Part shown: piece after piece, positions 3,742-64,000 of the stretch
Layout: every line of letters starts with the position of its first letter
How positions within the stretch are numbered: the stretch's first letter is position 1
Origin: Cymbomonas tetramitiformis
Lineage: Eukaryota; Chlorophyta; Pyramimonadophyceae; Pyramimonadales; Pyramimonadaceae
Direction of reading: 5' to 3'
Assembly (NCBI GenBank): GCA_001247695.2
Contig: LGRX02014079.1
Coordinates: 1 to 64,000, forward strand
DNA length: 64,000 nt
Program-made: the position numbers and the translations under genes
The notes under the pieces: model-generated
What the model was told of the DNA's origin: nothing
Database searches by the model: none
The model's input: the letters and a program-made list of their open reading frames with translations, nothing else

Positions 3742-3933
3742 TGCTGGATTCAGTGACCCGTAGGTCATAACTATTCTGACTCCCGTTAGCTGTACCAGTA
3801 CTCGTACAGTACTAGGTGACAGATCCCTAGGTCACAGACACGTTATATTCGTTTAACTCTTATAATCAGTTTACACTTGTATGAAAGCGATTCAGTGACC
3901 GCCCCGATATAATACGTTATATTATATCTCACA
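3742..3933 (+). mobile_element. Solo or truncated LTR (same family as element at 37174)
   Basis: The 192-bp sequence starts TGCTGGATTCAGTGACCC and ends ATATCTCACA, matching in reverse the 190-bp LTRs at 37174-37363 and 42165-42354. It is preceded by the internal-end motif CACAGGGTGGTG, which looks like the polypurine tract, so this is a 3' LTR in plus orientation with almost all of its element missing. Confidence 0.75.
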
Positions 3934-5215
3934 CCACCGTCTGAGCTGAGCTGTCACCGAAATGTATAGGTACCATGTGCACCATTTTACTCAGCTTGCA
4001 AGTGAAGGCAACAAACGCGTCATTTCCCCGCTCTGTGAGAGGTAATCTCGTGACGAAATCAACCCCCACCTCCTGCCAGTTCCTCAAGGGAATGGAATGT
4101 GGGTTGAGCAGCCCATCTGGATATGATGCTCGTGGACGCACATCCTGGCAAGTGGGACAGGAGGCTACCCATTTCGCCACATCCTCTGTAGCGTTCTTCC
4201 ACCGGAATCTACGCAGCACCCTTTCCAGCGTCTTCTCTCGCCCTGTATGACCTGCTGCCACTGAGTCGTGAGCCTCCCAAAATATCACATCCCGCAGGGG
4301 CGAGTCCTCTCCCAGCACCAACTGATAGCGGCCTGCTGCTACTCTCCACAGTACATCTCCCACGATCAAGGTTGTCAATCAGATAAAAATCAGACTGATA
4401 TCAGATCTGATCGGTCTGATCTGATCTGATACCTCTGATACCTCTGATTCGTCTGATCGTGGGAGGCACGGGAACATATGGGTGCCTGAAGGGACTATTT
4501 TGGGGACATTTTGGACAATTTTTACCCATACTAAAACGTCACATCTGATATTTTACATCGGCCCACTGTAAGAATCCGATTCATCGATGAAATATCGGCG
4601 GTTATCGATAAATTATCGACGAGTATCGATAAAAATCGCATAATGTCGATATTTATCATTAAAACATGAAGGTATCGACACACATCGATAAATTATCGGC
4701 CATTGTGGGCTGTAAGGACACACTCGAAAGCATGTTCGCGAAAAGCAAACAGAATCGTGTCGATATTTTATCGATATATGTCGATGATTTATCGATATAT
4801 GTCGACTCATAAATACGTTTATCGGTAAACATCGATATCTTATCGGCAAACTACGAAATTTTATCGACACATGTCAATATCCATCGATAATTTATCGAAA
4901 TATTCCCCGTACCAACGAATGAGTATTCCATTTCGTCACCGTATCATTCGACATATGATCGTTACTACCCGTCTGATTTTCGTCTGATTCTGATCTGATT
5001 CTGATCTGATCTGATCTGATCTGATCTGATCTGATTCTGATTATGTCTGATTGACAACCTTGCCCACGATACGAAACTCCTTCGCTGCCTGATGTGGTGC
5101 CGCCTTGACCCGCTCGCGCAGCTCTCGTAAGGGTCCCTTCCGAGTATAGTCATCTCGCAGTGCTTCAAGAAATGTGGAGTCTGTGGGCGGCTCAGTTGTG
5201 TCTCGCACCTTTCAT
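3934..5215 (-). pseudogene. Ty3/gypsy-type retrotransposon integrase fragment, split by a MITE
   Basis: On the minus strand the reading frame runs through 5215-5071 and, after the MITE at 4367-5062, through 4366-3934. The encoded fragment has the integrase zinc-binding pattern (HDSVAAGHTG ... CPTC) followed by the start of the core domain (VGVDFVTRLPL), which holds the first catalytic aspartate. It is cut off after this by an LTR, so the rest of the catalytic triad is missing. The frame is open on both sides of the inserted element, so the insertion broke a coding copy. Only a fragment remains and it cannot be functional. Confidence 0.8.
4367..5062. mobile_element. hAT-type MITE (696 bp) inserted in the integrase fragment
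   Basis: Perfect 17-bp terminal inverted repeats, CAAGGTTGTCAATCAGA, bound the element. It is flanked by a perfect 8-bp target duplication CCCACGAT (4359-4366 and 5063-5070). Eight-base duplications with ends starting CA-G point to the hAT superfamily. It carries no coding capacity: subterminal ATCTGATCTGA repeats surround a core rich in ATCGATAAATTATCGA-like palindromes. Confidence 0.9.
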
Positions 5216-7007: not shown

Positions 7008-7635
7008 TTATTCAGCATTCTCTTCGGTCTCATCTTCATCTAACTCTTCTTCCTCAGATTCGACAGTGGCTGCTTCCTTCCCCTTACTCGTCGGGTCAGT
7101 CTTCTTTTTTGGCTTCGTCTCGGCATCCTGATCGGGCTCGGCGTCGAAATTGGTCAGCCGTTGCTGCGCAGAGCTGACCATGTACGGGTCGTGGTCGAAG
7201 CCGATCGCGTTCAAACCACACCTCATGGCGGCCATGGACGTCGAGCCGACGCAGCAGCAAGCGTCGAGAATCCAGTTGAGTGGATGGCCGTCGTCATCCA
7301 CCTTGCCCGGATTGTCACCGAGCATGTGGCACTGGATCAGCTCCATCAACAGTGCTAGGGGTTTCTGATGGTTATTTACGACTTTGCCGTCGCGTTTGTA
7401 CATCTGGTGCACAACCGGGAAGCCGCGCAAAAGTGACGCGCGGCTTAAACGTTCACCTTCCCCCAGATCAAAGTTGAACATCCACTCCGGTTTTTTAGAA
7501 GACTCCCCCGCGGCATCGCTCTTTACATGGTACCCCAGGACCCCACATTCAATGTCATTGAAGCGTACGGACTTGTTGGGGTTCATGTGCACGTTCTGCT
7601 TGTGCCAGAAGAACCGCTCCGCGCGGCCGGAGCAG
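7008..7635 (-). pseudogene. C-terminal fragment of an N6/N4-type DNA methyltransferase
   Basis: On the minus strand the frame runs from about 7635 to a stop at 7008. It contains LNWILDACCCVGSTSMAAM, then a CG-x-x-AIGFDHDPYM stretch and an AQQRL helix. This is the S-adenosylmethionine-binding FxGxG-type motif and following helix of DNA methylases that carry this motif at the C-terminus (PF01555-like order), although the usual DPFxGxG is altered to DACCCVG. An acidic Lys/Glu tail follows. The same segment organisation appears in the full gene at 48599-53352 (DPFMGTG), so this is a second, diverged copy. The upstream part with the catalytic DPPW-type motif is absent, because sequence past 7635 is retrotransposon gag on the other strand. 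Confidence 0.6.
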
Positions 7636-7639
7636 TAAA

Positions 7640-9587
7640 CCGCGCTCCTGACTGGCAGCCCACCGACGAGACCCGCAAGCTATCGCTCTACAACCGCCTC
7701 GACCCAATCGTCTACGCGGCGGTGAAGGTGCGGTACCCGCTTGCGGGTGACCTTCGTGGCGTCCCCCTTCGTTCCCTCCAGGCCCTGGTTGTGGCAATTT
7801 ATCAGGCATGGGCACAGACGGAGGAGGAGGGGGCAGCGGTGCGTGAGAAGCACACGTTGGGGACGGACGGCAAGCCCTCCGCTCTCGCCACGTCGTCGGA
7901 GTACGCGGTGCTCCTCGAGGAGAAATGATCGCGGCCTTAAAGGCCTTGGTGCGTGGTAGCCGTGCGGGCGGGGGGCAGCAGCCGCAGCAGCAACATCGGG
8001 GGAAGCAGCATCAGAGGGGGTTTCGCGTTGGTGCGGGCAGCCCCCCCCCGCCGTCGGCTTCGACCGCGACAACATGAAGGCGAAGCCGCTGTGCCACCGC
8101 TGCCGCAAGGCCGGTAAAGGTGAGGTGTATCACCCTTACCGCGAGCAGGGAAGATATCTTCCTGGGATTGGCCGGCCCGGGGCCGTGTCACGGAGGCCCG
8201 GGCCGAAGGCGGGCCGAAGGCGGGCCGAAGGCGGGCCGAAGGAAAAGTTGCGGATGGGCCGAGTCGCATTGAGGGAAAAAACGATAAATTTCCAAAATTT
8301 TATCGATTTTTGACAAATTGCCATACTTAAAATTAAAATTTTGCGCCTGCGGTGGGCAATTTTGGGTTCGGGCCGAGACGGGCGGAAATGTGGCCGAAGT
8401 AAATTCCCAATGCGGGCCGAGTCACCTCCGCGGAAGATATCTACCCTGACCGCGAGTGCCCGCTTGGCGGTCGCCAACATTCACCCGCCACGGTCGCGGC
8501 TTTCTGCATTCCCATTGAGCAGGAGGACGCGGAGGGCCTGCACGCACTGGCGCTAGTGCAGGTCTTCCAGGACGCGGCGGACACCGGACCGGAGGCATTT
8601 TCGCATGCGGCATTGGCGTATGGTCCGCCCGCGGTGCTCTCCGCGGACGGCGTCGGGGGGATCGACGTGGCGGCCTACGGTTTCTCCGTGCCGCCTCCGC
8701 CTTCCGGTGAGAGGGACGACGAGGACATCTTGCGGCGACTTGATGCCCTCACCTCTGAGGTTCAGGCCGCCCAAGAGAAGGTACATTTCACCCACGCATC
8801 TTTTGTTCCCGGGAGTGAGGTGGAGGAGCATGCATCGGCTGTGGTGTGTGGCCTTGCCGCGGCGGCGGGGATTACGCCGGAGGAGCAGGTTCCGGCAGGT
8901 GGTGCGGCGGCATCGGCGTCCGCCGTGCAGGCCCCTGCTATGCCTGTCTCGCAGGTGGAGGATGTGGAGCCCGCGCCAACTCAATCGGCGCGGGTGACCA
9001 CCACGGCGGCGACGGGCGGCGAGTTCGAGGGATTCGTGCAGACGGTTAATCACGCCGCAGTCCAGCCGTCTTACCTCACTGGGTACGACACGGATGAGTA
9101 CGAGGACTTCGCCGACGGCACTTTCGCGGTGAAGTCGCGGACTCCGGCCATCTCGGCGAATCGTGCGTCGGAGTCCGCAGCCCACGTGCCTCGGTCTGGT
9201 GGTGCTTCCCGCACCTATGGTTGTGGCAAGCCGCCATGGGGCTTCCCCGCACACGCGGGTACGTGGGGCTTTTCTTTCTTCGTCTCTCTTATCCTCTTGA
9301 TCTCGATCATGGGAGTGGGGGCTGCCGCCTACACGGCGGCCAACGACATCGACTCTGTACAGGTATCGGGTCGGGCTGCTCCCGCAGCCTGTGCTGTGCA
9401 GGGGGGACTTGTGCATCTACCCGGGTATCTCCGAGCTGGACCCCGTCACTCTGGATGCGGTACTGCACTCCCTGGGTGCTGCGACGGTGGTTCACCGGCC
9501 GCCTGACCCACTGGAGTGCAGCGCTGCAAACTACTACTATGGGCATTGTGGTGACGGTACTCCTCTGTCCTTTGACCCCGAGTAGCG
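7640..9587 (+). pseudogene. LTR-retrotransposon gag-like gene with zinc knuckle and membrane segment
   Basis: An N-terminal helical gag-like part (about 7640-7927, with LSLYNRLDPIVY), a Gln/Gly-rich stretch, and a Cys-Cys-His-Cys knuckle (PLCHRCRKAG ... YHPYR|ECPL) are readable. The knuckle is interrupted by a MITE at 8146-8448; removing it with one target copy restores a CX2CX9HX4C pattern. After it come an acidic linker and, near 9250-9340, a strongly hydrophobic segment (WGFSFFVSLILLISIMGVGA) followed by Cys-rich sequence (LCRGDLCIYPG) in a shifted frame ending at 9587. Frames change near 7928, at a run of nine C at about 8041-8049, and near 9360, so the copy is broken or mis-assembled. 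No protease, reverse transcriptase or integrase is seen. Confidence 0.6.
8146..8448. mobile_element. hAT-type MITE (303 bp) in the zinc knuckle
   Basis: The ends CAGGGAAGATATCTTCC and GGAAGATATCTACCCTG are near-perfect inverted repeats. A perfect 8-bp target duplication ACCGCGAG lies at 8138-8145 and 8449-8456. The interior is GC-rich GGGCCGAAGGC repeats around an ATCGAT-containing AT core. A second copy in inverted orientation lies at 35994-36274. Confidence 0.9.
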
Positions 9588-46975: not shown

Positions 46976-47339
46976 TCGGAATCGATTGTTGGGACAATCA
47001 TAATCAATCGGGTTAATAGTGTTTACACCGATGAAATAGGTTTCAATTTGGGATATAGAATTCTGATACATTATCATAATTCCTTCCGCGATTGAAAAGT
47101 TCACCACTATTTATGGAGAATAATTATAATAATCAAACCGGTTTCAAAGTGGAAATACGTCGAATCGATTGTATAACTGGATCGGAAAATGAAACTAAAT
47201 CGTATCCTTGATCCGCACCCACCGGGAATAGAAAAAGGGGAAGTGGAAAATAGCCGTCGCGCAAAGAATGGGTGAATGGGTGAATGGGCGAATGGGTAAA
47301 TGGGTAATTCACCAAGTGAAAATACAAAATGGTCCTCGA

Positions 47340-48090
47340 ACTATTTTCAAGTGAAAATTCAACAACGCGTCCCTCTTCCGGAATATCCCCGCACCCCCCT
47401 CCCCGACAAGTGAAATTCCACAACGGGCCCCGGAAATACTGAAAATACACTTTGGTCTCCTTTTGCTAAAAAATGCACCGACACCTCCCCGATAAAGTCA
47501 AAATGCAAATCAGGTGAAAAACAACAAGTGAAAATACAAGGACGCGTCCTTCGTCCGGAATATCACCGCACCCCCCGCCCCGACAAGTGGAATTACACAA
47601 CGGGCCCCGGAAATACTGAACATACACTTTGGTCTCCTTTTGGTAAAAAATGCACCGAGACGTATCGTCCCCGCTCAAGTCCAAATCCAATTCAGGTGAC
47701 AAACAACAAGTGAAAATACAATGACGCGTCCTTCTTCCGGAATATCCCCGCACCCCCCTCCCCGACAAGTGAACTTACTCAACGGGCCCCAAAAACACTG
47801 AAAATACACTTTGGTCTCCTTTTCTGAAAAATTGCACCGAGACGTATCGTCCCCGCTAAAGTCCAAATCCAATTCAGGTGACAAACAACAAGTGAAAATA
47901 CTATGACGCGTCCTTCTTCCGGAATATCCCCGCACCCCCCTCCCCGACAAGTGAACTTACTCAACGGGCCCCAAAAACACTGAAAATACACTTTGGTCTC
48001 CTTTTCTGAAAAATTGCACCGAGACGTATCGTCCCCGCTAAAGTCAAAATGCAATTCAGGTGAAAAACTACAAGTGATAATACTACGACG
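47340..48090. repeat. Tandem repeat, unit about 182 bp, four copies
   Basis: The motif GAATATCCCCGCACCCCCC recurs at 47381, 47558, 47740 and 47922 (spacings 177, 182, 182). Each unit also has AACGGGCCCC, ACTTTGGTCTCCTTTT and AAGTCCAAATCCAATTCAGG. The array ends just before the region rich in GTCATCGATGAC, so it may mark the boundary of that unit. Confidence 0.88.
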
Positions 48091-48217
48091 CGTCTCTCTT
48101 CAAAAATATTGGTAATTCTGAATACTGAAACCGTGAATATTCAGAAACCTGCATAGATATAAGTGAAAATACAAGTTCCCATTTTGCCTGGCAAACGAAT
48201 ACAACTAGGACTCCACT

Positions 48218-51200
48218 CGACATCGATGACAACACAACCACAGGCCAGAAATAACGGACACACATCAACCTTCAAAAGATTATATAACAGGGACCTCCCC
48301 CGTCATCGATGACAGTGCAACCGTTTTTTGTTATAGGGATAACACGGCATCCTAGATTACTTCCCCCGTCATCGATGACAACAAATACCTAAGAAGTTAT
48401 ACTTCAGATTCATTTCTATTTATTTGTGATAAAACATTTTTCGCCGAAGTTACTTTCCCCGTCATCGATGACAGCACATACCTAAAAAAATTAAACTTCA
48501 GATTCCCTTCTATTTATTTGTGAAAGTACAATTTTCTCTTCGCCTAGTTGAACAAATAACAGGACGAGTCTAACACTTATCACTCAAGCGCCTAAGTCTC
48601 AGACTGACATACACGCCAGATTATGAGATATCATTGTCATCGCCTGACAAAAGGTCTCTTGTTGGATCTCCATGCCAAAAAACGCACGTCTAGCCAGTAT
48701 TGCTCCACATCCTGTGCTCCCTGTATACACACACTTCGACAATACTCAAGATATTTGACAAGATTGCTTCTCTGAAAACCGTCATCGATGACAAAGTTTC
48801 CAGCAGGCGCACATGCCGAACATTAAGTCCGGATTACGCTTCACTTTGAGAAACATTATACGCCTAGCAGACATAGCAATCAGGAACTTATTCCGATTGC
48901 AAGCTCGTTTCAACACTGTACAAGCCGGCATGCAACTCGATTAGGAAAGCAGAACATACCGGTTCCCATGAACGGGTCCATCACGAGCTGCCCTGGCATG
49001 TACGTGTACCGCTGCACAAGCATGTTCATCATCCAAGGCTCTTTCTGTCCGTAAACCAAAGCCTTTCCAGACCTCTCACACGTATCTTGCTTAAACGCAA
49101 GGCAGCCAGTCAGTTTGCAGTCATGTTTCACCGTGGTTGACGACACCACCTGCTTGAAAGCCCTGTTCATACGTGTGAACTCATCGTCAAGCAGGTCCTC
49201 AACCTTAGCAAATTCCTCCTGCACCTCCTCGTCATCGTCGCCCGGCGCCACTTCTTCTGCACGCTGCACCCGAATGCTTTCCTTCACACCGTCCAACAAG
49301 TTGCGCAGCAAAGCTTTCTTCTCCTCGTTCGACGGGCAAGTCAGGATGTTCCCGGTAAACGAAGTCGACAGGACGTCGTACTTGTGCTGACGGGTGAGCA
49401 CGTATTTGTGATGCTCTGAAACCTGAGGTGCGTAGAATGCTTTCCAATCCATCACGACTTTAGACGGAGTTCTTGCCAGGCGTGTGTACCAGATTCCAGA
49501 GGAGCACGGGGTATTGCTCCTTGTCTCAGAAAGCCTCAGCTGGGAAAACGTAATGCAACCTGCAAAACAGTGGCAATAACTTCGTCATCGATGACGAAAA
49601 AAGCTGAACAAAATATTTCAAACATGGAATAACGATGTAAATATGAGTCTCATATTGTCATCGATGACGATATTTTCAGATATGAAAACAAAGGGGGTAT
49701 AAAATGTTTCTTTCCTGGCTATCTCGACTACCCAAATAATACAGGAGACATCATACCGGGAAGGTTCACAAAACCAGTGAGATTGCAGTTCTTCGCTTCT
49801 TCTTGTATTTCTTGGAGCACTTCAAGTGTGCCCATCACAGTGAACACGGTTTCTCCATCAGGCCCGCCTAGGTCCACAGCTTTCTCGTACGTGTCCATGC
49901 TACCGTTGTTATCGGCCACTGAACCGAAGATTGCCTTCGTTGCCACCTTCCGGTCGATGTCAGTTGGGTACCCGGCTTTCTCGCTGCTTCCCCAAGGAAC
50001 GTCCGTGATGACAGCGGCCACACCAACCCCCTCAAAGAACACAGACAGCAGCTGCTTCGTAGCTTTCACTGCGTCACAACACGCCAATGTCACCGCGGGT
50101 ACTCCTGCGTAAGTGAGAACGTCGCTCTGAAATACCCAGCACTTGATCTGCTCAGCACCGATGGCCACCACAGTCGCTTTGTACCAGACACGAAAAAAGA
50201 CCTTGGATGCCTTTTCCGTACAAGGTACGTATATGTCACTACGAGAAAAGCCAATTGGCTTTCCTTCCAACGGGTTAGCAACCAGGAACTCCAGGAACTC
50301 AATCTCATTTATCCCAGTCTTACGGGCGTCCCAAATAGAACCATCTCGCTTGGTCATCTTCTTTTCTGTCTTGAAGTCGAGGTTTCCATCAGCAGCGCTG
50401 AGTGCTCCGTAACATTTCACTGGGTCCCACGGGCTACCGTAAAAGAACCCCGGCTGATTTGGAACAGCGGGTGATTCTTTGGGGGCCTGATACAAAAAAT
50501 GTTCTTTTTAAGAAAGTCGTCATCGATGTTAACAACACCAACTACTAAATCTTTACATTATAAGTTCAACAACTCACCGGTGTTGCGTGACGAGATTCTG
50601 CTTCTGGAACTTCAGGAATGGGCATCAGTACAGGTGGCAACTCAGGTACTCCGGTTTCTTTCGTCGGGGTGCTCATCTCTAGCTTCTGCGAGACTCCGGC
50701 CAACGACGCCTCAAGAGTTTGTCGTCGCTCCTTCTTTTTCTTACGCTCCGTAGTCAGCACTTCGAGCTCGTCCTTCTTCCTCTTCAACTCCGCCCTTACT
50801 GCCGCTCACGTCTCGTCCTGTAAGTCCATCTCTTGGAGGTTCTCGGTCACGTAGTTCTTTATTACCTTATTTAACTTCTTCACAGTCTTCTTTGCAGCTT
50901 CGTGGCCATCAGCTGCCTGCTTTGCCTCTTCTTCCAGCTTTGCCTCTTCTTTATTTGTTCTTCTCTGCGAGGAGAACAACTTGTGATCAAAGTTTGTTCC
51001 GTCTCGAACATTAAACGTAAGTCATGTGTGAACCTAAAAAAACAGAAAATAGTATTGTAATGTATAGCCTAAACTTCGTCATTGATGACGAAAAACTTCG
51101 TCATCGATGACGAAAAACAAAACTAATTTATTGTGACCAAGTGTTTTTCTGGGAGTTCTACGTACCAGCACTTCCCCCTGGCTTAAATAAGGGCCGAATG

Positions 51201-54200
51201 TCCAAGAAGTCCCGTTCCTGCTGCGCGGTGTCCTCGTTGAAAGGTTGTTGCCCCCCCACCGTGTCGTCGTCGGCTTGCAACCAGGCTTGAAATTGATCAT
51301 ACTCAGGACTAGGAGGACGCTGCTTGTCATGCTGAGACTCAGCCACGTTCTCTCCAGAGACTGCTTCTTTTGCATGCTTTTCACCCTCCTCCGCAGCTTT
51401 TACATAAACATTAACGACCTCCATCTCCTCCACTTCGCCGTCCTTGAAGAAAACTGTGGTTTTGAACTTCCCCTCCACAAACGCAAGTGCCTTTTTTATT
51501 TCGTCCTCTTTCAGTATGCAAGCTACTGGGCTGGAAGGCAACGGGCTTTTCTCAACCGGAAATAGATAGCTGTCTTGGCTGCGAGACACACTTTATTCGT
51601 TAGCTATAAATAATAACAGCTTGCAATGACAACTAAAGCACATTGTTCAAAGGAAGCACATTGTTAAAAGGAAAAGAAGAAGGGAAAATAACCTTACCAT
51701 CCTTTAACGATTCCAGCCATGAACTCATCTGCTTTTTCTTGGTTGAAAGTAACACCCGTTTCTTTCATGAGCTCTTCAAGTCTTGCCGTTATCTTTTCCC
51801 TCATTCTAAGGGTTGTATGTACAGAAGTCAGTAAAGCCCCTTGCTGACTTAATGACCGGCGTGTGATCCTGCAGGGTTTGTGTCTGCAGCCAGTGTCCTT
51901 TCTCAGAATCTTCTCCGTGCTTGAAGTAGGTCACATTCTTACACACCGCCTGAAAAGCTTTCACCTGAAAAGTCACCACAACATGCCATGCTTTAAAGTT
52001 CTACCTGTTCTGCATGCCGACAACAGGAATACATGTACGCAGTTGTCATCGATGACAACAATACTTAAAACGGAAACAAATATACGGTAAAGAATATTTT
52101 TCTTGCGTAAGTTATACCTTATTTTCCAGCGACAAATCCCCAAGCTCCTTGTTTGAATACAAACTAGCAAACCCGAAAGGACTGTGACTTCCGAGGTCCT
52201 CGCAGTTCTTCTCAACCAAATCAAGCAGTCGCTGGTCCTCACTTAAAAGTCTGTGAACGGAGATGAGCTTCTTGAAAAAGGTTTGGTTGTAGTCTTCGTC
52301 GAGCGTGCCGTAACGAGCAACCATCGCAGGTCCAGAAAGCTTCGTTTCCTTTGGATGGCCAGGCTTTCAAAAGGCGATCAAAATACATGAACTTTGAAAA
52401 ACAATTATAAGCCTTCACCCCCTTCTCGTTCGTCACAAAACGCGAGCCCGCAAGAAAGTTGATCTCCAGTGGCGTTATGTCCTCAGAAAAAACCTGGCAC
52501 AAGCATTCAGGCTCAGAAAAATATTGTCATCGATGACAAAAATATTTCTAAACGTATATACGTCCAGTGAATAAACACGACAGGTACCCAGACCGTCATC
52601 GATGACAAAGAATACTAAGTTCCTAGAAATATAACGACTAAATGTCCGCGCAGAGACGTGCTTTGTCATCGATGACGTTTGAGAAAGAGTTAAAGCACGA
52701 ACCAAAAGCGAACTCCCTGACAAAATACAGGAAGGTTGTCATCGATGCAAAAAAAAAACTCAGAGGGACACCGATGACAACCTTTTTAACCCAAAATGTT
52801 ATCAATGAAAAGATTGAAAAAAATAAAACCGTACCTGCACCCGGGCCTTCAGCCAGCGCTCGTCGCCGGGTGCGACTTTCTTGCCTGCAATGATGCCACC
52901 GTCTTTATGCGCCTTCCGGAAACCTTCGTTTCTTCCGTGTCCGTCAATTGCCTTGTACTTGTGCCTATAATTAAAGCTAATAGGTCAGGAAAGTAAAAAG
53001 AACGCACGACTGCAAAGAAAGAAATAGCTTACTTTTTACTGCTCGGCGTCTTGTACCACATCATGTCGCAGCTGGGGTCGAGTCCCACGAGCTCGATGCG
53101 CTTCATGGCCTCCACCGCACAATGCTTGTGACCTCTTGGATTGTCATCAAAAGAGCACTCACTCAAGTTCAGTTCCTTTGTTTCAACATATCTTGCCTTG
53201 TGTATCTGCCCAATGTTAAGAGACTCAATGACCTCGTCTGACTCTTGTTCAGAACTGGTGGGTGCAGACTTGCCCCGCGCACTTCTTGCCTTGCTGACTA
53301 CGTTCCATTCTATGGGCGTTTTAGAGTTTCTTTTTCCGGCCGAGTCTGCCATTTAATTATCACTGAGTGTGCAGCGTTGACTGTGGAGTGAGGTGGGGTG
53401 GCAGTGACAAATATTTTGAACTGACAAAGGGGCCGCCACTTTCCGCTTCTTATTGTCTAAATTCGTCAACCACTCGTGACTTCCAGCCGCGCGTCGCGCG
53501 CGTTTTTTTGGGGGGGTGGGGAGGTGGGGGGGGTAGGTCAAGGGAGTTGGGGGTAGTCTTTTTGACAAACCTTCGTCCCAGTTTATTATCGCTTGCTGCA
53601 TAAACAATTATTAATTTCATATATAATATTATATTGGCAATTTTAATTTTCAACTTTCTGGCGCGGACTACTTAACACCAACTTATTTTTCGAACTGCAC
53701 ACTCCTTAACAAACAAATATAGAACTCCAACAAGGTTGCAACTTCGAGATGACAATTTAATTAGCTTGATATCAGGTAAATACTTGACAAATTATTGTTT
53801 TGTCGATAACATGTCATCGATGACACTACGACCCCTCCCTCTCTCTTAGCTCTGACTGAATCTTTACATGTTACCTGTTTCGTCGTCGATGACATTCGAG
53901 TGCGTGTGAAATATTACAGCTATTTGAACTATTCCATTTGCACAATGGCCAACTTTGTGGATTTCTTCTTCGAAACCCCTCAAGGTGTTCTTCTTTGTCA
54001 GCCTATTCCATGGCGTGTACGTGGGAAGCGATGCCAAGTTTTGCACAAGGACATTTGTGACGCCTTCGGACTTAACCCCGACGATGGATTGGCTGTTGCA
54101 AAACTGGCTAGTAGGAAATATGTCTGTGAGAAGGAGGTGTACCGCGTGGACCCGGAATGGGGCTACTCCGTTATAGGTTGTTTGATTGATACCGAAGACG

Positions 54201-54838
54201 AGCCCGAAGATGCTTCACCGAAAACTCCTCCCGCAACCTCCGCGGCTTCAGGGTCTGAGGACGAACCTGAAATCACTGGCGAAGCTGCTTCCACTTTTGA
54301 CAACTTATGCGACTCGGAACCTGCAGATATCTTTGAACCAGAGCTTGATACTCCTGTTGCGAATTTGTCAAAGCAGGACTTTGAGTTTGCAAACGCGTTC
54401 CCTAAAGATACAATCTTCACCACCCAAGTGCCTCCTAACGTCGACGGGAACACTACCTTCGGTTTCCACGTCAAACAACCGCCATCCAAGGACAGACGTG
54501 GGTTTACGTTGACTAAACTACCGTTCTTTCAAACACCGCGTACTTGGTCACATGCGAATAAATCGACCGACAAGGCAATAACTGATAACTGGAAGCAGTT
54601 GGGTGCCAAGGTGAACATTCGAAGTGTGAAATGCCTTGGAGAGGCAGTATGCAAGAATAAGACTTGTCCGTTCCTTCAAATACATGGCAAAAACTTCATT
54701 GAAAAGGTATGAAACTGTTTTTGTACTTTGTATAATTATAGTACTTTCAAATATCGTCATCGATGACAGTTCTTTCGCAAGTTTATTTTTTGAGAGTAAC
54801 TGCTTTATAATGTTTTGACTGTTTTGGCATCGATGACG
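48218..54838. repeat. Dispersed 12-bp palindrome GTCATCGATGAC
   Basis: Perfect copies start at 48302, 48368, 48461, 48781, 49584, 49657, 51100, 52045, 52526, 52595, 52665, 53813 and 54756. Near copies lie at 48219, 50519, 51078, 52738, 53883 and 54827. Every copy is in an intron, an intergenic space or a flank of the two divergent genes here; I found none in their exons and none elsewhere in the window. The word is usually followed by AC or GA, and flanks are otherwise unrelated, so these are not simply copies of one longer repeat. Confidence 0.9.
48599..53352 (-). CDS. ParB-like domain / N6-N4 DNA methyltransferase fusion, multi-exon
   Basis: Starts MADSAGKRNSKTPIEW at 53352. Exon 1 ends 53033 (GTAAGC donor). 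Exon 2 (ending about 52835, GTACGG donor) continues the frame. Together they show NPRGHKHCAVEAMKRIELVG and KYKAIDGHGRNEGFRKA, matching the NPR and DG-x-x-R-x-x-A signatures of ParB-like N-terminal domains. Middle exons (52501-51169) are unrecognised; 51010-50581 is a Lys/Glu-rich coiled coil. Exon 50488-49757 carries ITDVPWG, the DPPW-type catalytic motif IV. Exon 49559-48960 ends VMDPFMGTG, and the last exon 48720-48599 completes the SAM-binding motif (STGCGAILARRAFFGMEIQ). Such enzymes methylate adenine N6 or cytosine N4. A shift near 52370 is explained by a possible short intron (GTGAAG...GAAAG). A second shift near 51865 and an in-frame TGA near 50806 remain, so the copy may be damaged or mis-assembled. 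Introns carry GTCATCGATGAC. Confidence 0.6.
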
Positions 54839-55394
54839 AATATTGTTACTTCCTTGCAAACCATTTTCATTGAATAAATATAGATTTTAATTCAATAGGT
54901 GGCGCATGCAAGTCGGGAAACAAGTACAAGTGGCACCGATATGTCCAAAGTGCAAACAAACTACTTCCATGGAACCTTGTGCCGCTACCGCCACGCTTTA
55001 CCGTGGTGAACTTAAGCCTGGATCAGGCTATGTGTTGATGTTTAAACACATCGGGGAACACTCTTGCACAAACCTTGTCAAAAAAACCAAGCCAGCAGAG
55101 CTTTGGGAAACCGAAACTGAGGCAGTGTTGAAGGCAATCCCCGAGATGGGCGCAGCTCGATTGGAAAACCTGAAGATGGCTGCAACCGCCAATGTGATGA
55201 ACAAACTGCTGAGTGGACACGAATCATCCACCCTACAAGACGTACTGAACGTGTCAGAGGCGGTGCAAGATGTTCGGGCTTTGGAGTACGTTATTCGAGG
55301 AAGCAAGAGCTCGACGTATGTCCCCTCAAAGGACCCCGATGTCGAGATAAGTGGCTACTGCCAGACAGTCCTACAAGATGCGAACCAGCATTAA
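53945..55394 (+). CDS. Two-exon gene with Cys/His motifs, divergent from the methyltransferase
   Basis: Exon 1 is 53945-54706 (MANFVDFFFETPQGV ..., donor GTATGA). It has an acidic Ser/Thr/Pro-rich middle (EDEPEDASPKTPPATSAASG) and ends with Cys residues (KCLGEAVCKNKTCPFLQIHG). Exon 2 starts near 54899 (acceptor TCAATAG) and encodes ICPKCKQTTSMEPC, then FKHIGEHSC, then a helical C-terminus ending at 55394. The Cys pairs and the final H-x4-H-x-C suggest a zinc finger, somewhat like FLYWCH/MULE-type fingers, but this is not certain. With the splice sites named, exon 2 would be read out of frame by one base, so the true acceptor differs or there is a small indel. Its intron (54707-54898) carries two GTCATCGATGAC-type words. 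Confidence 0.55.
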
Positions 55395-56200: not shown

Positions 56201-56384
56201 GCGCCAATCTTATCTTGGCCAATCTTGTGATTGTTGGTTTCATCCTATTGGTTTGCGGCATTCACCTTGAGAGGCCCAAGCCCTCCTTGGCAATATTTAA
56301 ATCGATTGAGGCCTTTAGGAGGATCATTTTTCATTCCTTCCTGGAAGACACACCGCTTCATCTTTGCATTATCAAGAATGAAGA

Positions 56385-56984
56385 ATGGCGGATACCCATT
56401 ACGTCCTGTTAGGGATTGTTCTTCCTTACATTCGGGAAATGCGTCAATTGCGTGAGGAATACTTTGTGCAGGCATGGGTCGAAGAACGTTTCTTGTGGGC
56501 GTTGGAAGAAAAAGTTTTGACGTTTTCGGGCATGTTTGGTGATGTTTGGATGCCTGTAACTTTGGCTCACTATTTCTATGAATTACGTGATCTGCTCGAA
56601 GTCGATTGGGGGGATGTTCGTGATTGGGGAAATTTCTTGCAGATATTCCCTACCTCCAACTTTGAAGCCCCACATTACGATGATGAAGGGTTCCATTGGC
56701 AAGGACCTGGCATGTCAAACAACTTCAGATTCCGGCTAGACTACATCGATTTCGACGACTTCGAAAAACGATGGCTTCGTGAATATCACTGGGCCTGGTA
56801 CAACGGCTTTTACAACGAGCATGCAGATCCTCAATGGATCTACCCGTCGCGGTACGAGTTGTCTATGAGGCCTGCCTGCAGTCGATGCCGACGCATTGAT
56901 ATGGATCTTACCCGTATTGGCGAAGAGTACATCTGCACTGACCTTGTCGACTGTCGGCGGATGACTCGTCTTGATTTGAATTGA
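56385..56984 (+). CDS. Family member, about 200 residues, Cys-pair protein
   Basis: A complete-looking intronless ORF from MADTHYVLLGIVLPYIREM to a stop at 56984. The N-terminal helix (REEYFVQAWVEERFLWALEE) matches the fragment at 61590-61847 (REECFLHAWVEERFL). The middle has REYHWAWYNGFYN and the end has CSRCRRID ... EYICTDLVDC; these correspond to HHWAWCNGWFRN and CDDCGRSD ... RYICVDRASC in the copy at 60569. The Cys pairs could bind zinc. No known domain is recognised. It is the most intact member in the window. Confidence 0.6.
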   Translation: MADTHYVLLGIVLPYIREMRQLREEYFVQAWVEERFLWALEEKVLTFSGMFGDVWMPVTLAHYFYELRDLLEVDWGDVRDWGNFLQIFPTSNFEAPHYDDEGFHWQGPGMSNNFRFRLDYIDFDDFEKRWLREYHWAWYNGFYNEHADPQWIYPSRYELSMRPACSRCRRIDMDLTRIGEEYICTDLVDCRRMTRLDLN

Positions 56985-60568: not shown

Positions 60569-60985
60569 TTAGTCGGAGTCGGAGGACAGCAACTCTGGGA
60601 TTTCGGTATCATCGGTATCCTGCCAGAACTCGCAACTCGCGCGGTCGACACATATGTATCGATGTGGGTAAGTCACTCGCATAACAAGTGAATCTGACCG
60701 TCCGCAATCATCGCAACAGGGCCGGTCGTATACACGATCATAGACGAATTCGTTACCATCAGCGTCATAGTCAAGGAGGTTGCGAAACCAACCGTTGCAC
60801 CAGGCCCAATGGTGATCATATAACCATCGTCGGTGGAATTCGTTTATACTGCGATAAAAATTCATACCGGAAATCCAACTAGTCCGATTAAAGTAGGACG
60901 CCTCATTGACTCTTAAGCCGCCGACGTCGTCGTTCACAATTCTCCGAGGATGAAAAAAAAAACGCGCAAGTGTCACAGGAAACAC
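60569..60985 (-). CDS. Family member, C-terminal two thirds
   Basis: The frame shows YDHHWAWCNGWFRN, DRPCCDDCGRSD, PHRYICVDRASCEFW and an acidic tail ending ELLSSDSD. It matches the C-terminal part of the family at 58115 and, more distantly, 56385. The first Met in frame (MFPVTLARFFFHPRR) corresponds to WMPVTLAHYFYELRD in the middle of the copy at 56385, so the N-terminus is missing or lies in another exon; a poly-A run near 60955 could hide a frameshift. Confidence 0.55.
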   Translation of the reverse strand: MFPVTLARFFFHPRRIVNDDVGGLRVNEASYFNRTSWISGMNFYRSINEFHRRWLYDHHWAWCNGWFRNLLDYDADGNEFVYDRVYDRPCCDDCGRSDSLVMRVTYPHRYICVDRASCEFWQDTDDTEIPELLSSDSD

Positions 60986-61589
60986 AACAATTTCTGAGGT
61001 AAATGTGCCAGGGATATCGGGGCATGTAATGCGTACTCGTGTTTCAAGGGCCCACAGAAATGTCCACTACCCGGCCTTGGGTACATCGGGATGTACCCAA
61101 GGTCACTTGTACATCCTTGGGTCGTGCATGCAAGATTTGTGTCCGATGGCCTTATGGTTGATAAGACATGTCCTCAAGACTTCCCTTCAGATATACAACC
61201 ACTCGCTTTGAGCAATTTCGATCATTTGGGTGATTTTCATATGGTATCATAGTTGTCAATTTGCAGGTTTATAGTGGTTTGTAGTTAACAATTTTGCTGG
61301 GTACATACCTTGGGTACATCGACCTTTAGGTACATTTATGGGTGGTGTAAAAGGTCGATTCAAAATTTGGAGACCCATGTTGAAAAGTTCACGAGCTGCG
61401 CTTTCTGAAGTGTCATGTCAAAAATTGCATCCGACTTCATCTTCACCGAGCAAAATGGCTTCAAAGTTAAGCAACGTTTCTTGATCACGAACGAAACATG
61501 TGGAAATAATTATTCAGCAAGGGGTATGGTCGCCATAGTGGTGCAGTGCGCGGCCGTCCATGTCCCATCTCGAACATACGTGTCAAATG
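60986..61589. other. No recognisable gene
   Basis: GTACATC/GATGTACCC words recur (61080, 61300, 61680) as short palindromes such as TTGGGTACATCGGGATGTAC followed by CCAA. Nothing else is recognised. Confidence 0.45.
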
Positions 61590-61847
61590 TTATATTTCCA
61601 TCCTCGACGATGACTTGAGGCCAAAGTGCGGTGTCATGGATGTCAATATGGTGCATGATATGTCGAAAATGCTTGGGTACATGGGGATGTACCCAAGAAG
61701 GCTGGGGTACATCGCAATGTACCGCAGGGTAGTGGACAGAAATCGTTCTTCTACCCATGCGTGCAAAAAGCATTCCTCGCGGGAACGGCGTCTTTCCCGG
61801 ATGGCGGGAAGCACAAAACGGAAAAGGACAATGTAGTAGTCTGGCAT
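61590..61847 (-). pseudogene. N-terminal fragment of a family member
   Basis: MPDYYIVLFRFVLPAIRERR followed by REECFLHAWVEERFL matches the N-terminus of the protein at 56385. The match then stops and the frame runs into unrelated repeat sequence rich in GTACATC words. Downstream sequence (61855-61930) again shares the family 5' flank (GGTAGGAGGTGG, GTGAGCGAAAGC). Confidence 0.6.
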
Positions 61848-62102
61848 CTGGGTGTGTCGCTCACTGGTAGGAGGTGGGGTCTATCGTGAGCGAAAGCGAG
61901 AAATGAATGCTGATGAAGAGATAGGCAGGCTTTATAATGCGTGACATTTTACATACCAAGCATGCGTATAGGCATAGCATGAGTCATACAATGAGTGCAA
62001 GGAAATCAAACGTGGTAATACCACGATAGTTCAACATTAGATATTCACAATATATACTATTGTTTGACAACTCCTATATACAAGTTCATCGGACTGATCG
62101 AG
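61848..62102. other. Spacer between gene family and transposase-like gene
   Basis: It contains the shared flank of the multigene family (to about 61930) and AT-rich sequence, with no gene. Confidence 0.4.
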
Positions 62103-64000
62103 TTATTCACACATCTGGTCGTCATCATCGGACAAGGACGACAAAGAGGCTTCCTCGTCCGAACTCTCACCCTCTTCAGCCTCCGCGTTCTCTTTATCCT
62201 CTTTATCCTCTAATGGCATGATTGCGTCGCGCAGTAAGAGTTTGGGTGTTCTATGCTGGGGTGGCTCAAAGCTCTTTGACATGTCGCTGGCGATGACTCG
62301 TTTGACCAACAAGTCATATTGCTCACCCGGGATCCATCGCTGTGTGCTTGCATTGATCTTTCGGCGCTCCTCTTCCGTGTCCCAGTCCCATGCTACGAAT
62401 ACTTCGCTTGGTGTATACGGCGCCACCTGCTTGGTACGTTGATGCAGCCGGAAACTTTCAGGTTTCGATGCCTTCTCCTTCGAAAGCCGGGAGTCTGTAT
62501 TCTGGGCCTCCTTTTGGGAGGCGCTCGTGAGCTTAAATGTACCACAAGTCAACCACCGCAAACATTTTTCTCCTGCACCAGAAAGAAGATACAAGAGGTA
62601 TTAGATTGACATAAAACGTTGTGATGTTAAAAGCAGGTTGCGCGCGCAATCACATCAACAAACATTTCTCACCTTTCTCATTTAGCAGCTGCTCTTGTAC
62701 CTCACAAAGGTACAGATATCTCGACCATCCTCGGCTCCTTCCAAGAGCGATACGAAACGGGTATTCCATCCGGGCAGTCTTCTCGGATTCGGGAGCAATT
62801 GCAATCAACACAGCCATGCTACCTTTCTTCATCTTGCTGTAGCTCACATCGTAGTCCGGGCCGTCAGTTTCTCCCAGAATGTATTGCGCAAGATGATCTC
62901 GAGCTCGTCTTCCAATGGTATTTTTTTGTGCCCCGATGTAGATACATTAGGACGAGGTACTGGGCGCACGTGAACCGCTACGGAGTCCCGAAGGCCCTGC
63001 ACGTAATCAGCCAGTTGTGCATCCGTGTATCCACGTTCAATACCATTCGTATCAGCCATTGGCTCATCGACAATCAGTACTTCCGCATCTCGCCCGTTCG
63101 CGCTCAAACCACCCGAAGGAGCAGGCATCATGGGTCCAGTAACCTCAAAGGGAGCCTCGTGCAGCACCCACGTTGTCTTCTCTTTTAGTTCGAACGTTCC
63201 TGTCGCAATGTCACGTTGCATTTGAACATACCCTTCAAGAAAAGTATTTGCGCGCTTGGCTAGAAATTGAAGCCGTTCCGCCTCCTCGGTGGTTGCGACA
63301 TCTGCAAAACAAAAACCCGAGAAACTGAGAAGGCCACTTACATTTGAAATATGACAAATCAAATCGTAATCGCTAGCAGTGCAGTGCTTACCTCGAATGC
63401 ATAAGCAAAGATTCCTCTGGCATTGAATGACAAGATCCTCGATCTCTTTCAATGGTTTGCTCGTAGACTTCCTGGAAGTCGCAAGTTGCTTCGCTTGTTT
63501 CCGTGCGCTCAATTCGTTAATGGATTTAGGCTCGACAAAGCATGGTGAGCCCTCGGGCAGGCTGCTCTTAAATGCCTTCACCCCACCTTCCTTTGGAAGC
63601 CAGACTGTATCGAATGAATAACGTTTCGCCTGCACTAACACGTCGCCTGTGGGCCCAGAAAAAATCTTGAATGCGTGTTGGAAGCTGACATCGCGCACTT
63701 CGTTATAGCATCCATGCATCCAGCCCTTGATATCGTGCACCTCATCGATCAGTTGACATTCCGGAACTACTCCATCCTTAAAGCAGTTCCTAGCCACCTC
63801 CATCAAATGCTCGATGTCCCAAACGTTCAGCCTCCTCAAAGCCACAGAAAACCTTGAAAACATCTGATCGATATTTTCGTGTGTATGTCCCACGATCAAA
63901 TAGTTGATCTTCACCTTGCGGAATACCCCACGTTTGACCAGCATGGCACAATAAGCAATCAGGAAGTGGCTCTTATTGCTGCTTACATTGTCCAATTGTA
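62103..64000 (-). CDS. Transposase-like protein with VGHTHENIDQ motif (DUF7869-like), 5' end outside window
   Basis: The frame enters from the right end. It shows MDNVSSNKSHFLIAYCAMLV and NYLIVGHTHENIDQMFSRFS, the D-N ... GHTHE-(D/N)-IDQ-x-FS signature of transposase-like proteins (DUF7869 family) found in many eukaryotes. An 90-base intron (63302-63391, GTAAGC ... TTGCAG) keeps the frame. Another intron is 62573-62672 (GTGAGA ... GTGCAG). The last exon 62103-62572 encodes a Lys-rich linker, a WDWDTEEERR stretch and an acidic Ser/Glu-rich tail ending DDDDQMCE. Between the two there is one apparent frameshift near 62880 (ILRNTFW to YILGETDGPDYDV), so the copy may be damaged. Probably part of a DNA transposon. 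Confidence 0.65.

Follow-up and report, generated by a model that had tools for sequence, protein, structure and literature searches.

The transposon and its two divergent genes

The window analysed here, a 64,000-nucleotide stretch of contig LGRX02014079.1 from the green prasinophyte alga Cymbomonas tetramitiformis, contains a truncated DNA transposon that carries a spliced gene for a predicted DNA methylase, a divergently oriented second gene presumed to encode the transposase, and many copies of a 12-bp palindrome, GTCATCGATGAC. The methylase gene is one of the two divergent genes of this transposon and not a lone transferred gene. An all-frame reading, together with the exon junctions, gives the methylase gene nine exons on the minus strand, with the ATG at 53352 and a stop codon that ends at 48599:

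53033..53352, minus strand, exon 1: N-terminal module, holds NPRGH; splice sites conserved
52835..52964, minus strand, exon 2: holds YKAIDGHGRNEGF, a GxxR that resembles Box II
52118..52493, minus strand, exon 3: holds SEDITPLEINFLAGSRF; frame disrupted in the window copy
51698..51964, minus strand, exon 4: frame disrupted in the window copy
51166..51578, minus strand, exon 5: linker
50578..51033, minus strand, exon 6: Lys/Glu-rich linker; upper limit uncertain; in-frame stop in the window copy
49757..50486, minus strand, exon 7: methylase motif IV TDVPWG, at ~49989-50003
48960..49559, minus strand, exon 8: motif I DPFMGTG at the exon end, at ~48960-48978
48599..48720, minus strand, exon 9: remainder of the S-adenosylmethionine-binding motif and the stop codon

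This confirms at the level of sequence what a preliminary description of the locus had claimed, a spliced eukaryotic minus-strand gene with a predicted methylase domain of the bacterial or phage N6/N4 type, and the motifs named there, NPR in exon 1, YKAIDGHGRNEGF in exon 2, DVPWG in exon 7 and DPFMGTG at the end of exon 8, all lie at the positions that it gave. The good GT-AG sites that it reported recur beyond the window, as GT...AG is kept at seven of the eight introns in all mappable copies of the gene (8-11 per site, window included; 11 tried); at intron 5 the acceptor is ambiguous across copies, which leaves the upper limit of exon 6 uncertain. The short exon 9, absent from the preliminary description, continues with STGCGAILARRAFFGMEIQQE and extends motif I to GTGSTG..ARRAFFGMEIQQE. 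Intron 2 measures 341 bp in the window versus 534-541 bp in eight other copies. Altogether, the predicted algal protein exceeds 1,100 amino acids, is encoded by a spliced gene and contains a long linker.

In the window this gene is broken. In comparison with P0001, a C. tetramitiformis protein described below, and with the C25652 copy of the transposon, the reading frame is disrupted in exon 3 and again in exon 4, and exon 6 contains an in-frame stop. The point of disruption in exon 3 reads open in the C25652 copy, and intact exons are present in other copies. According to the genome paper, the Cymbomonas assembly combines nanopore and Illumina reads (PMC10675990), and because of this hybrid origin some of the disruptions could be single-base errors. 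The window copy is decayed and is therefore best regarded as a relic of an active family and not as a working gene.

The extent of this family became apparent in a search of the genome (851.7 Mb, 25,745 contigs), in which the exon 7 region of P0001 was matched at no fewer than 54 places on 54 contigs, with 121 matches overall. These 54 places are a lower bound, since scoring covered 54 of 2,574 candidates, and they do not include the copy in the window. Some of the 54 contigs may represent alleles or overlaps. Ten copies were fetched with their flanks and compared with the window. They share a common layout, with the methylase gene, the divergent second gene and an array of ~177-182-bp repeats at either end, the two arrays being mutually inverted. 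A complete element measures ~12.6-12.9 kb (C25652 12.6 kb, C21932 12.9 kb; the two stretches with both ends) and possesses long terminal inverted repeats. The corresponding features of the window, to which no strand is assigned, are:

47255..55349, truncated transposon copy, 8.1 kb; homology to the ten other copies ends here
47255..48109, terminal repeat region: terminal sequence, then ~177-182-bp direct repeats (family D1, 47309-48109)

The window copy thus has an intact terminus on the methylase side, which reads ...GCGCGACG at 47255, and has lost the distal portion of the second gene as well as the far terminus. In the complete copies the same repeat array stands inverted at the opposite end, and in their outermost bases the two termini resemble each other without being identical. 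For the reading of target-site duplications, end stretches from ten further copies were added (one further stretch did not exist). A 9-bp target-site duplication lies beside the terminus GCGCGACG in all six copies with both ends readable; this count leaves out copies in which one end was missing or could not be recognised, such as C15371, C19045, C3869, C16281, C23164, C17321, C890 and C14912. As a control, flanks were paired between different copies, and a 9-base word was shared in one of 30 such pairs (C3443 left, C261 right), the other 29 sharing at most 7 bases. Mutator-like elements (MULEs) are characterized by terminal inverted repeats and target-site duplications of 8-11 bp, and this is the combination found here (9 bp, 6/6). 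Of the two scenarios offered in the preliminary description, carriage on a mobile element is thus the one borne out, by the 54 or more genomic places, the inverted repeats and the duplications.

The second gene is read from the plus strand, and two of its exons lie in the window:

53946..54708, plus strand, exon 1: presumed transposase; relative of P0002
54900..55349, plus strand, exon 2: Cys/His-rich CPKCK...C...H..HSC; start approximate; cut by the truncation

Over the aligned part, exon 1 shares 89% identity with the EukProt protein P0002, the one match among 2,323 candidates in the search with the second-gene protein. The frame of exon 2 relative to exon 1 is ambiguous in the window, and in complete copies the gene runs on through several further exons. 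The pattern of the Cys/His-rich segment was matched in 8 of the 11 stretches; two others hold part of the second gene, and for one none is listed. The position of the gene, the 9-bp target-site duplication and the inverted repeats are suggestive of a transposase of the Mutator type. In Pfam, the MULE transposase domain is PF10551 and the SWIM zinc finger PF04434. As the open reading frames (ORFs) of the second gene gave no Pfam match above cut-off, and as a SWIM-like CxC...CxH pattern occurs in 2 of the 11 stretches, we do not file the element as a MULE. An AlphaFold2 model of P0002 from the single sequence was uninformative (predicted local distance difference test score 33).

The palindrome and its conservation

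The palindrome GTCATCGATGAC, which the preliminary description had missed, occurs in 13 exact copies in the window, and all of them lie inside the element at 48302-54756, at a first-order chance expectation of 0.0003. These sites and the related near-palindromes, again without strand, are:

48302..48313, palindrome, 3' flank of the methylase gene
48368..48379, palindrome, 3' flank of the methylase gene
48461..48472, palindrome, 3' flank of the methylase gene
48781..48792, palindrome, intron 8 of the methylase gene
49584..49595, palindrome, intron 7 of the methylase gene
49657..49668, palindrome, intron 7 of the methylase gene
51100..51111, palindrome, intron 5 of the methylase gene
52045..52056, palindrome, intron 3 of the methylase gene
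52526..52537, palindrome, intron 2 of the methylase gene
52595..52606, palindrome, intron 2 of the methylase gene
52665..52676, palindrome, intron 2 of the methylase gene
53813..53824, palindrome, between the divergent genes
54756..54767, palindrome, intron 1 of the second gene
48219..48230, near-palindrome with 1 mismatch, element region
starts at 50519, 51078, 52738, 52767, 53882 and 54826, other near-palindromes with 1-2 mismatches, element region

With up to two mismatches allowed, 20 sites are found in the element region and 3 elsewhere in the window. The palindrome is a property of the whole family, since every one of the 20 methylase-exon loci examined (3.8 kb each) carries between 3 and 9 exact copies. 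The ten compared copies and the window hold 203 sites in total, and the two complete copies have 25 each, that is 50 in 25,448 bp, in which the runner-up 10-bp palindrome occurs 5 times. No exact site was found in 40,643 bp of flanks of seven copies, and the part of the window that lies outside the element (55,905 bp) has none either. Among the 136 sites that map onto the window element none is exonic. The remaining 67 of the 203 lie mostly in that half of the second gene which the window lacks; exon limits there are approximate, and one of these sites (5673 in the C25652 stretch) falls inside an exon interval so defined. Positions are also common between copies, with 19 of 26 union sites exact in at least 7 of the 11 stretches, a count limited by the fact that several stretches span part of the element.

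The palindrome sites change three times more slowly than the remaining non-coding DNA of the element. In four disjoint copy pairs, 26 of 912 site positions differ (2.85%, a value somewhat biased toward conservation by the definition of a site as exact in at least one copy), compared with 896 of 10,028 positions in other non-coding element DNA (8.93%) and 1,250 of 18,847 in coding element DNA (6.63%). None of 300 random sets of non-coding 12-mers was as conserved. When sites are defined from the reference copy alone, the 12 bp that flank the palindromes show 5.9-8.4% differences in these same four pairs. Instead of selection, homogenisation between copies could account for the slow change, but it would have to skip the bases beside the palindromes. 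Neighbouring palindromes are often 66-73 bp apart, both in the window (48302-54828) and in other copies, and this distance may be a spacing rule for a bound protein. A distance of 93 bp is frequent as well, and where it occurs in intron 2 it reflects tandem repeats with units of 93 bp.

The methylase and its N-terminal module

With the full-length protein as query, a single relative was found among 7,992 scored candidates, namely P0001 (CYMTET_8702) of C. tetramitiformis itself, with 79% identity. Its gene model begins inside exon 3, as exons 1 and 2 are missing from the underlying copy on contig C2199. P0001 passes the Pfam family N6_N4_Mtase (PF01555) with 33.8 bits at a cut-off of 26.7, the match covering profile positions 164-217 of 221, and exons 7-8 of the window alone reach 13.6 bits, which is under the cut-off. 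In the PDB, the motif I region of the window exons matches DpnA (E-value 7.4e-6) and CcrM (0.0013), and the window exons also match phage methyltransferase families, with a best value of 2e-7. The protein is far from the CcrM equivalog NF050803 (24.4 bits, cut-off 830). Motif IV (TDVPW, exon 7) and motif I (DPFMGTG..STG, exons 8-9) are present in 18 of 20 genomic copies. Motif IV precedes motif I, which we take to be the permuted, beta-class arrangement. Judged from these motifs and matches, the C-terminal domain is a predicted beta-class N6/N4 DNA amino-methyltransferase, and it would methylate adenine at N6 or cytosine at N4.

Selection was assessed through the ratio of nonsynonymous to synonymous changes (dN/dS) in three disjoint pairs of copies from different subfamilies. 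It amounts to 0.06-0.29 for exons 1-3 (0.06 from exon 3 alone) and to 0.25-0.31 for exons 7-9, and to 0.68-0.74 for the linker exons 4-6. Between subfamilies, the N-terminal module and the methylase are thus under purifying selection. This parallel constraint argues that exons 1-3 and exons 7-9 serve one gene, without being proof of a single transcript. In the pair that includes the window copy the values are 0.46 for exons 1-3, 0.54 for exons 7-9 and 0.51 for the linker, which fits decay.

The identity of the N-terminal module is less clear than that of the methylase. The preliminary description had called this part ParB-like, and the boxes behind that label are real, as NPRGH and GHGR are both kept in nine of nine copies whose N-terminus was read. 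Their order, NPR...GxxR followed by SEDITPLEINFLAGSRF, matches the expectation for phage ParB domains, and GHGR agrees with Box II (GxxR) as defined for the ParB-CTPase fold in the available text of PMC12704722, a four-residue pattern being weak evidence in itself. Two narrow profile comparisons agree with this. In hhalign, the module scored against 17 phage ParB domains at a level that 2 of 400 shuffles reached (P 0.0035), and an 8-row profile of the module against phage ParB domains did so at a level reached by 1 of 500 (P 0.0024), with the boxes aligned in the correct register in both cases. A broader profile comparison did not bear the label out: against a profile of 78 ParB domains the probability was 2.1% (P 0.023, 9 of 400 shuffles as high), while five of five left-out phage ParBs were recognised by that profile at 94.5-99.0%. 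HMMER against phage ParB gave 2.1 bits, under the best of 20,000 shuffles (9.4), and Pfam gave no ParB match in the N-terminal part. Because these tests fail while the control ParBs score so highly, the label is suggestive at best and should be treated as a lead and not as a result. A search of the N-terminal part against 5.8 billion proteins gave none of 823 candidates at an E-value of 10 or less, and no relevant match was found in the PDB. Matches of the N-terminal part to phages in tblastn turned out to be chance matches. According to the text cited above, fusions of ParB with N6_N4 methylases typically occur in phages, and the commonest eukaryotic representative of the ParB-CTPase fold is sulfiredoxin (PMC12704722).

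A different methyltransferase-like C-terminal segment, LDACCCVGSTSMAAMRCG, lies at 7008-7679 on the minus strand (Pfam N6_N4_Mtase E-value 7e-4, under the cut-off; Methyltransf_25 0.004). By eye it belongs to another family than the transposon methylase and is possibly the methylase of another element. Elsewhere, an ORF at 62844-63998 (minus strand) contains DUF7869 (1.9e-36), a domain associated with algal mobile elements, and one at 3929-4378 (minus strand) resembles by eye the zinc-binding region and core of a gypsy-type integrase. Between 55585 and 61880, ORFs of a repeated family occur on both strands (for example 56382-56984 plus, 60569-61066 minus and 61590-61880 minus) and share AWVEERFL and W(Y/C)NG(F/W)(Y/F)(N/R)N; the one that was tested had no Pfam match. 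A run of unidentified bases lies at 12.0-13.0 kb, and the window holds 937 N.

A proposed self-marking system and its known counterparts

In VANDAL21 of Arabidopsis, the family's own protein VANC21 is described as recognising short motifs that are dense in non-coding DNA (PMC5735166; for VANDAL elements and VANC anti-silencing proteins see also PMC10398659). The palindrome shows the same distribution, being dense in the non-coding DNA of the Cymbomonas element and rare outside it, in the window as in the flanks. Because of this precedent we propose that the transposon possesses its own sequence-targeted DNA-marking system that works in a VANDAL/VANC-like manner, a reading to which we give about an even chance. 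It builds on the element itself, its mobility as read from repeats and target-site duplications, the two-gene layout, the methylase motifs and the conserved palindromes. By analogy, we infer that the palindromes are what the methylase binds or modifies. The ~25 non-coding copies of GTCATCGATGAC would then be the address and the methylase the writer. A protein of the element, probably the methylase by means of its N-terminal module, would recognise these sites, and the methylase would methylate the DNA of the element to N6-methyladenine (6mA) or N4-methylcytosine (4mC). Marked copies could be read as self, whereby host silencing would be escaped or transposition timed; alternatively, the mark might regulate the element's own genes. 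In a more specific form, which we consider rather doubtful, the N-terminal module would be a divergent ParB-type clamp that is loaded at parS-like palindromes and delivers the methylase along the element; every genomic copy would then bear a private 6mA or 4mC mark by which transposon and host DNA differ, and this mark would counter silencing or license transposition.

Several observations weigh against self-marking. The usual motif IV is D/S/N-P-P-Y/W, and TDVPW has V as second residue where P is usual. Within subfamilies, dN/dS is 0.57-1.25 at few changes, so that recent constraint is unsupported, with the exception of exon 3 in one pair (0.07, 126 codons). The failure of the broad ParB profile deprives the module of a firm assignment, and the protein that binds the palindromes could be the transposase instead of the methylase.

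This last point leads to the possible, if somewhat unlikely, alternative that the palindromes bind the transposase or another DNA-binding protein of the element, and that the methylase acts elsewhere or unspecifically. A precedent exists in En/Spm, where TnpA binds subterminal 12-bp sites, and the Cys/His-rich segment of the second gene and the scatter of the palindromes over the whole element, introns of both genes included, can be read in this way too. However, the palindromes extend beyond the termini, unlike usual transposase sites, and fill introns in both genes, a pattern also described for the VANC sites of VANDAL21 (PMC5735166). We regard it as unlikely that the palindromes are regulatory sites of a host factor, such as a transcription factor, and that the methylase was captured and has another role: non-coding placement, the frequent 66-73 bp spacing and slow change would fit any bound factor, but the count is zero both in the rest of the window (55,905 bp) and in the flanks (40,643 bp). 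A reading of the methylase gene as passive cargo, captured from the host or from bacteria and of no use to the element, is quite improbable. The values near 1 in places among close within-subfamily pairs and the fast-evolving linker speak for it, but the N-terminal part and the methylase are constrained between subfamilies (0.06-0.31) and both methylase motifs are retained in most copies. Finally, although the Cymbomonas genome is described as rich in endogenous viral elements, including the kinds in question (PMC10675990), an endogenous virus fragment related to Polinton-like viruses, giant viruses or mirusviruses is a highly improbable explanation, as IMG/VR contained no relative of P0001, the N-terminal part or P0002 (six short peptide patterns each), the second-gene ORFs lack Pfam matches above cut-off, and terminal inverted repeats with 9-bp duplications fit a DNA transposon. 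An 18-base pattern of the palindrome was found in 18 viral stretches at one site per stretch, and therefore forms no viral clusters.

Should self-marking hold true, the element would amount to a eukaryotic self label that resembles restriction-modification, and it would be a natural test case for whether a selfish element can write marks other than 5-methylcytosine on itself in eukaryotes. As the family is multi-copy and the alga culturable, base calling from nanopore or PacBio reads could test the marking directly. In searches of open-licence papers we found no report of a DNA transposon that combines an amino-methylase with a conserved element-wide palindrome, and neither "methyltransferase" nor "methylase" occurs in the main text of the paper on the Cymbomonas genome. 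What is described, as far as the cited texts go, are transposons that counter silencing with their own DNA-modifying proteins (VANC, TET/JBP, DNMT), which act on cytosine methylation, and, in a eukaryotic host, a gene that encodes a bacterial N6_N4 methylase (PMC8885841).

That host gene, N4CMT of bdelloid rotifers, has in common with the Cymbomonas gene its eukaryotic setting, its introns and a permuted N6_N4_MTase domain of bacterial origin. It is reported to contain a chromodomain and to write 4mC that silences transposons, whereas the Cymbomonas gene belongs to a transposon (PMC8885841). The phage fusions of a ParB-CTPase domain with an N6_N4 methyltransferase show the same proposed order, N-terminal module and then methylase (PMC12704722). 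They measure ~400-460 amino acids (L005 404, L007 460, L009 404, L010 413), in contrast to the more than 1,100 of the spliced algal protein with its long linker, in which ParB is a candidate assignment. Retrotransposons of Symbiodinium and charophytes that carry DNMT genes likewise are eukaryotic mobile elements encoding their own DNA methyltransferase, but those enzymes are described as C5-cytosine methyltransferases, whereas the Cymbomonas element is a DNA transposon with an N6/N4-type enzyme and conserved palindromes (PMC5890265). Fungal TET/JBP dioxygenase transposons are also DNA transposons with a DNA-modifying enzyme; their chemistry is 5-methylcytosine oxidation and not amino-methylation, and the passages of PMC12730594 that concern them do not mention an element-wide palindrome. 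VANDAL, too, is a DNA transposon whose second gene encodes a protein that acts on DNA methylation, and it has a short motif that is dense in non-coding parts, introns included, and partly arranged in tandem repeats, here the 93-bp units of intron 2. The differences, taken from the same descriptions, are that VANC removes cytosine methylation and is no methylase, whereas the Cymbomonas protein is predicted to be a bacterial-type amino-methyltransferase, and that the VANC motif YAGTATTAY is non-palindromic, whereas the Cymbomonas motif is a palindrome.

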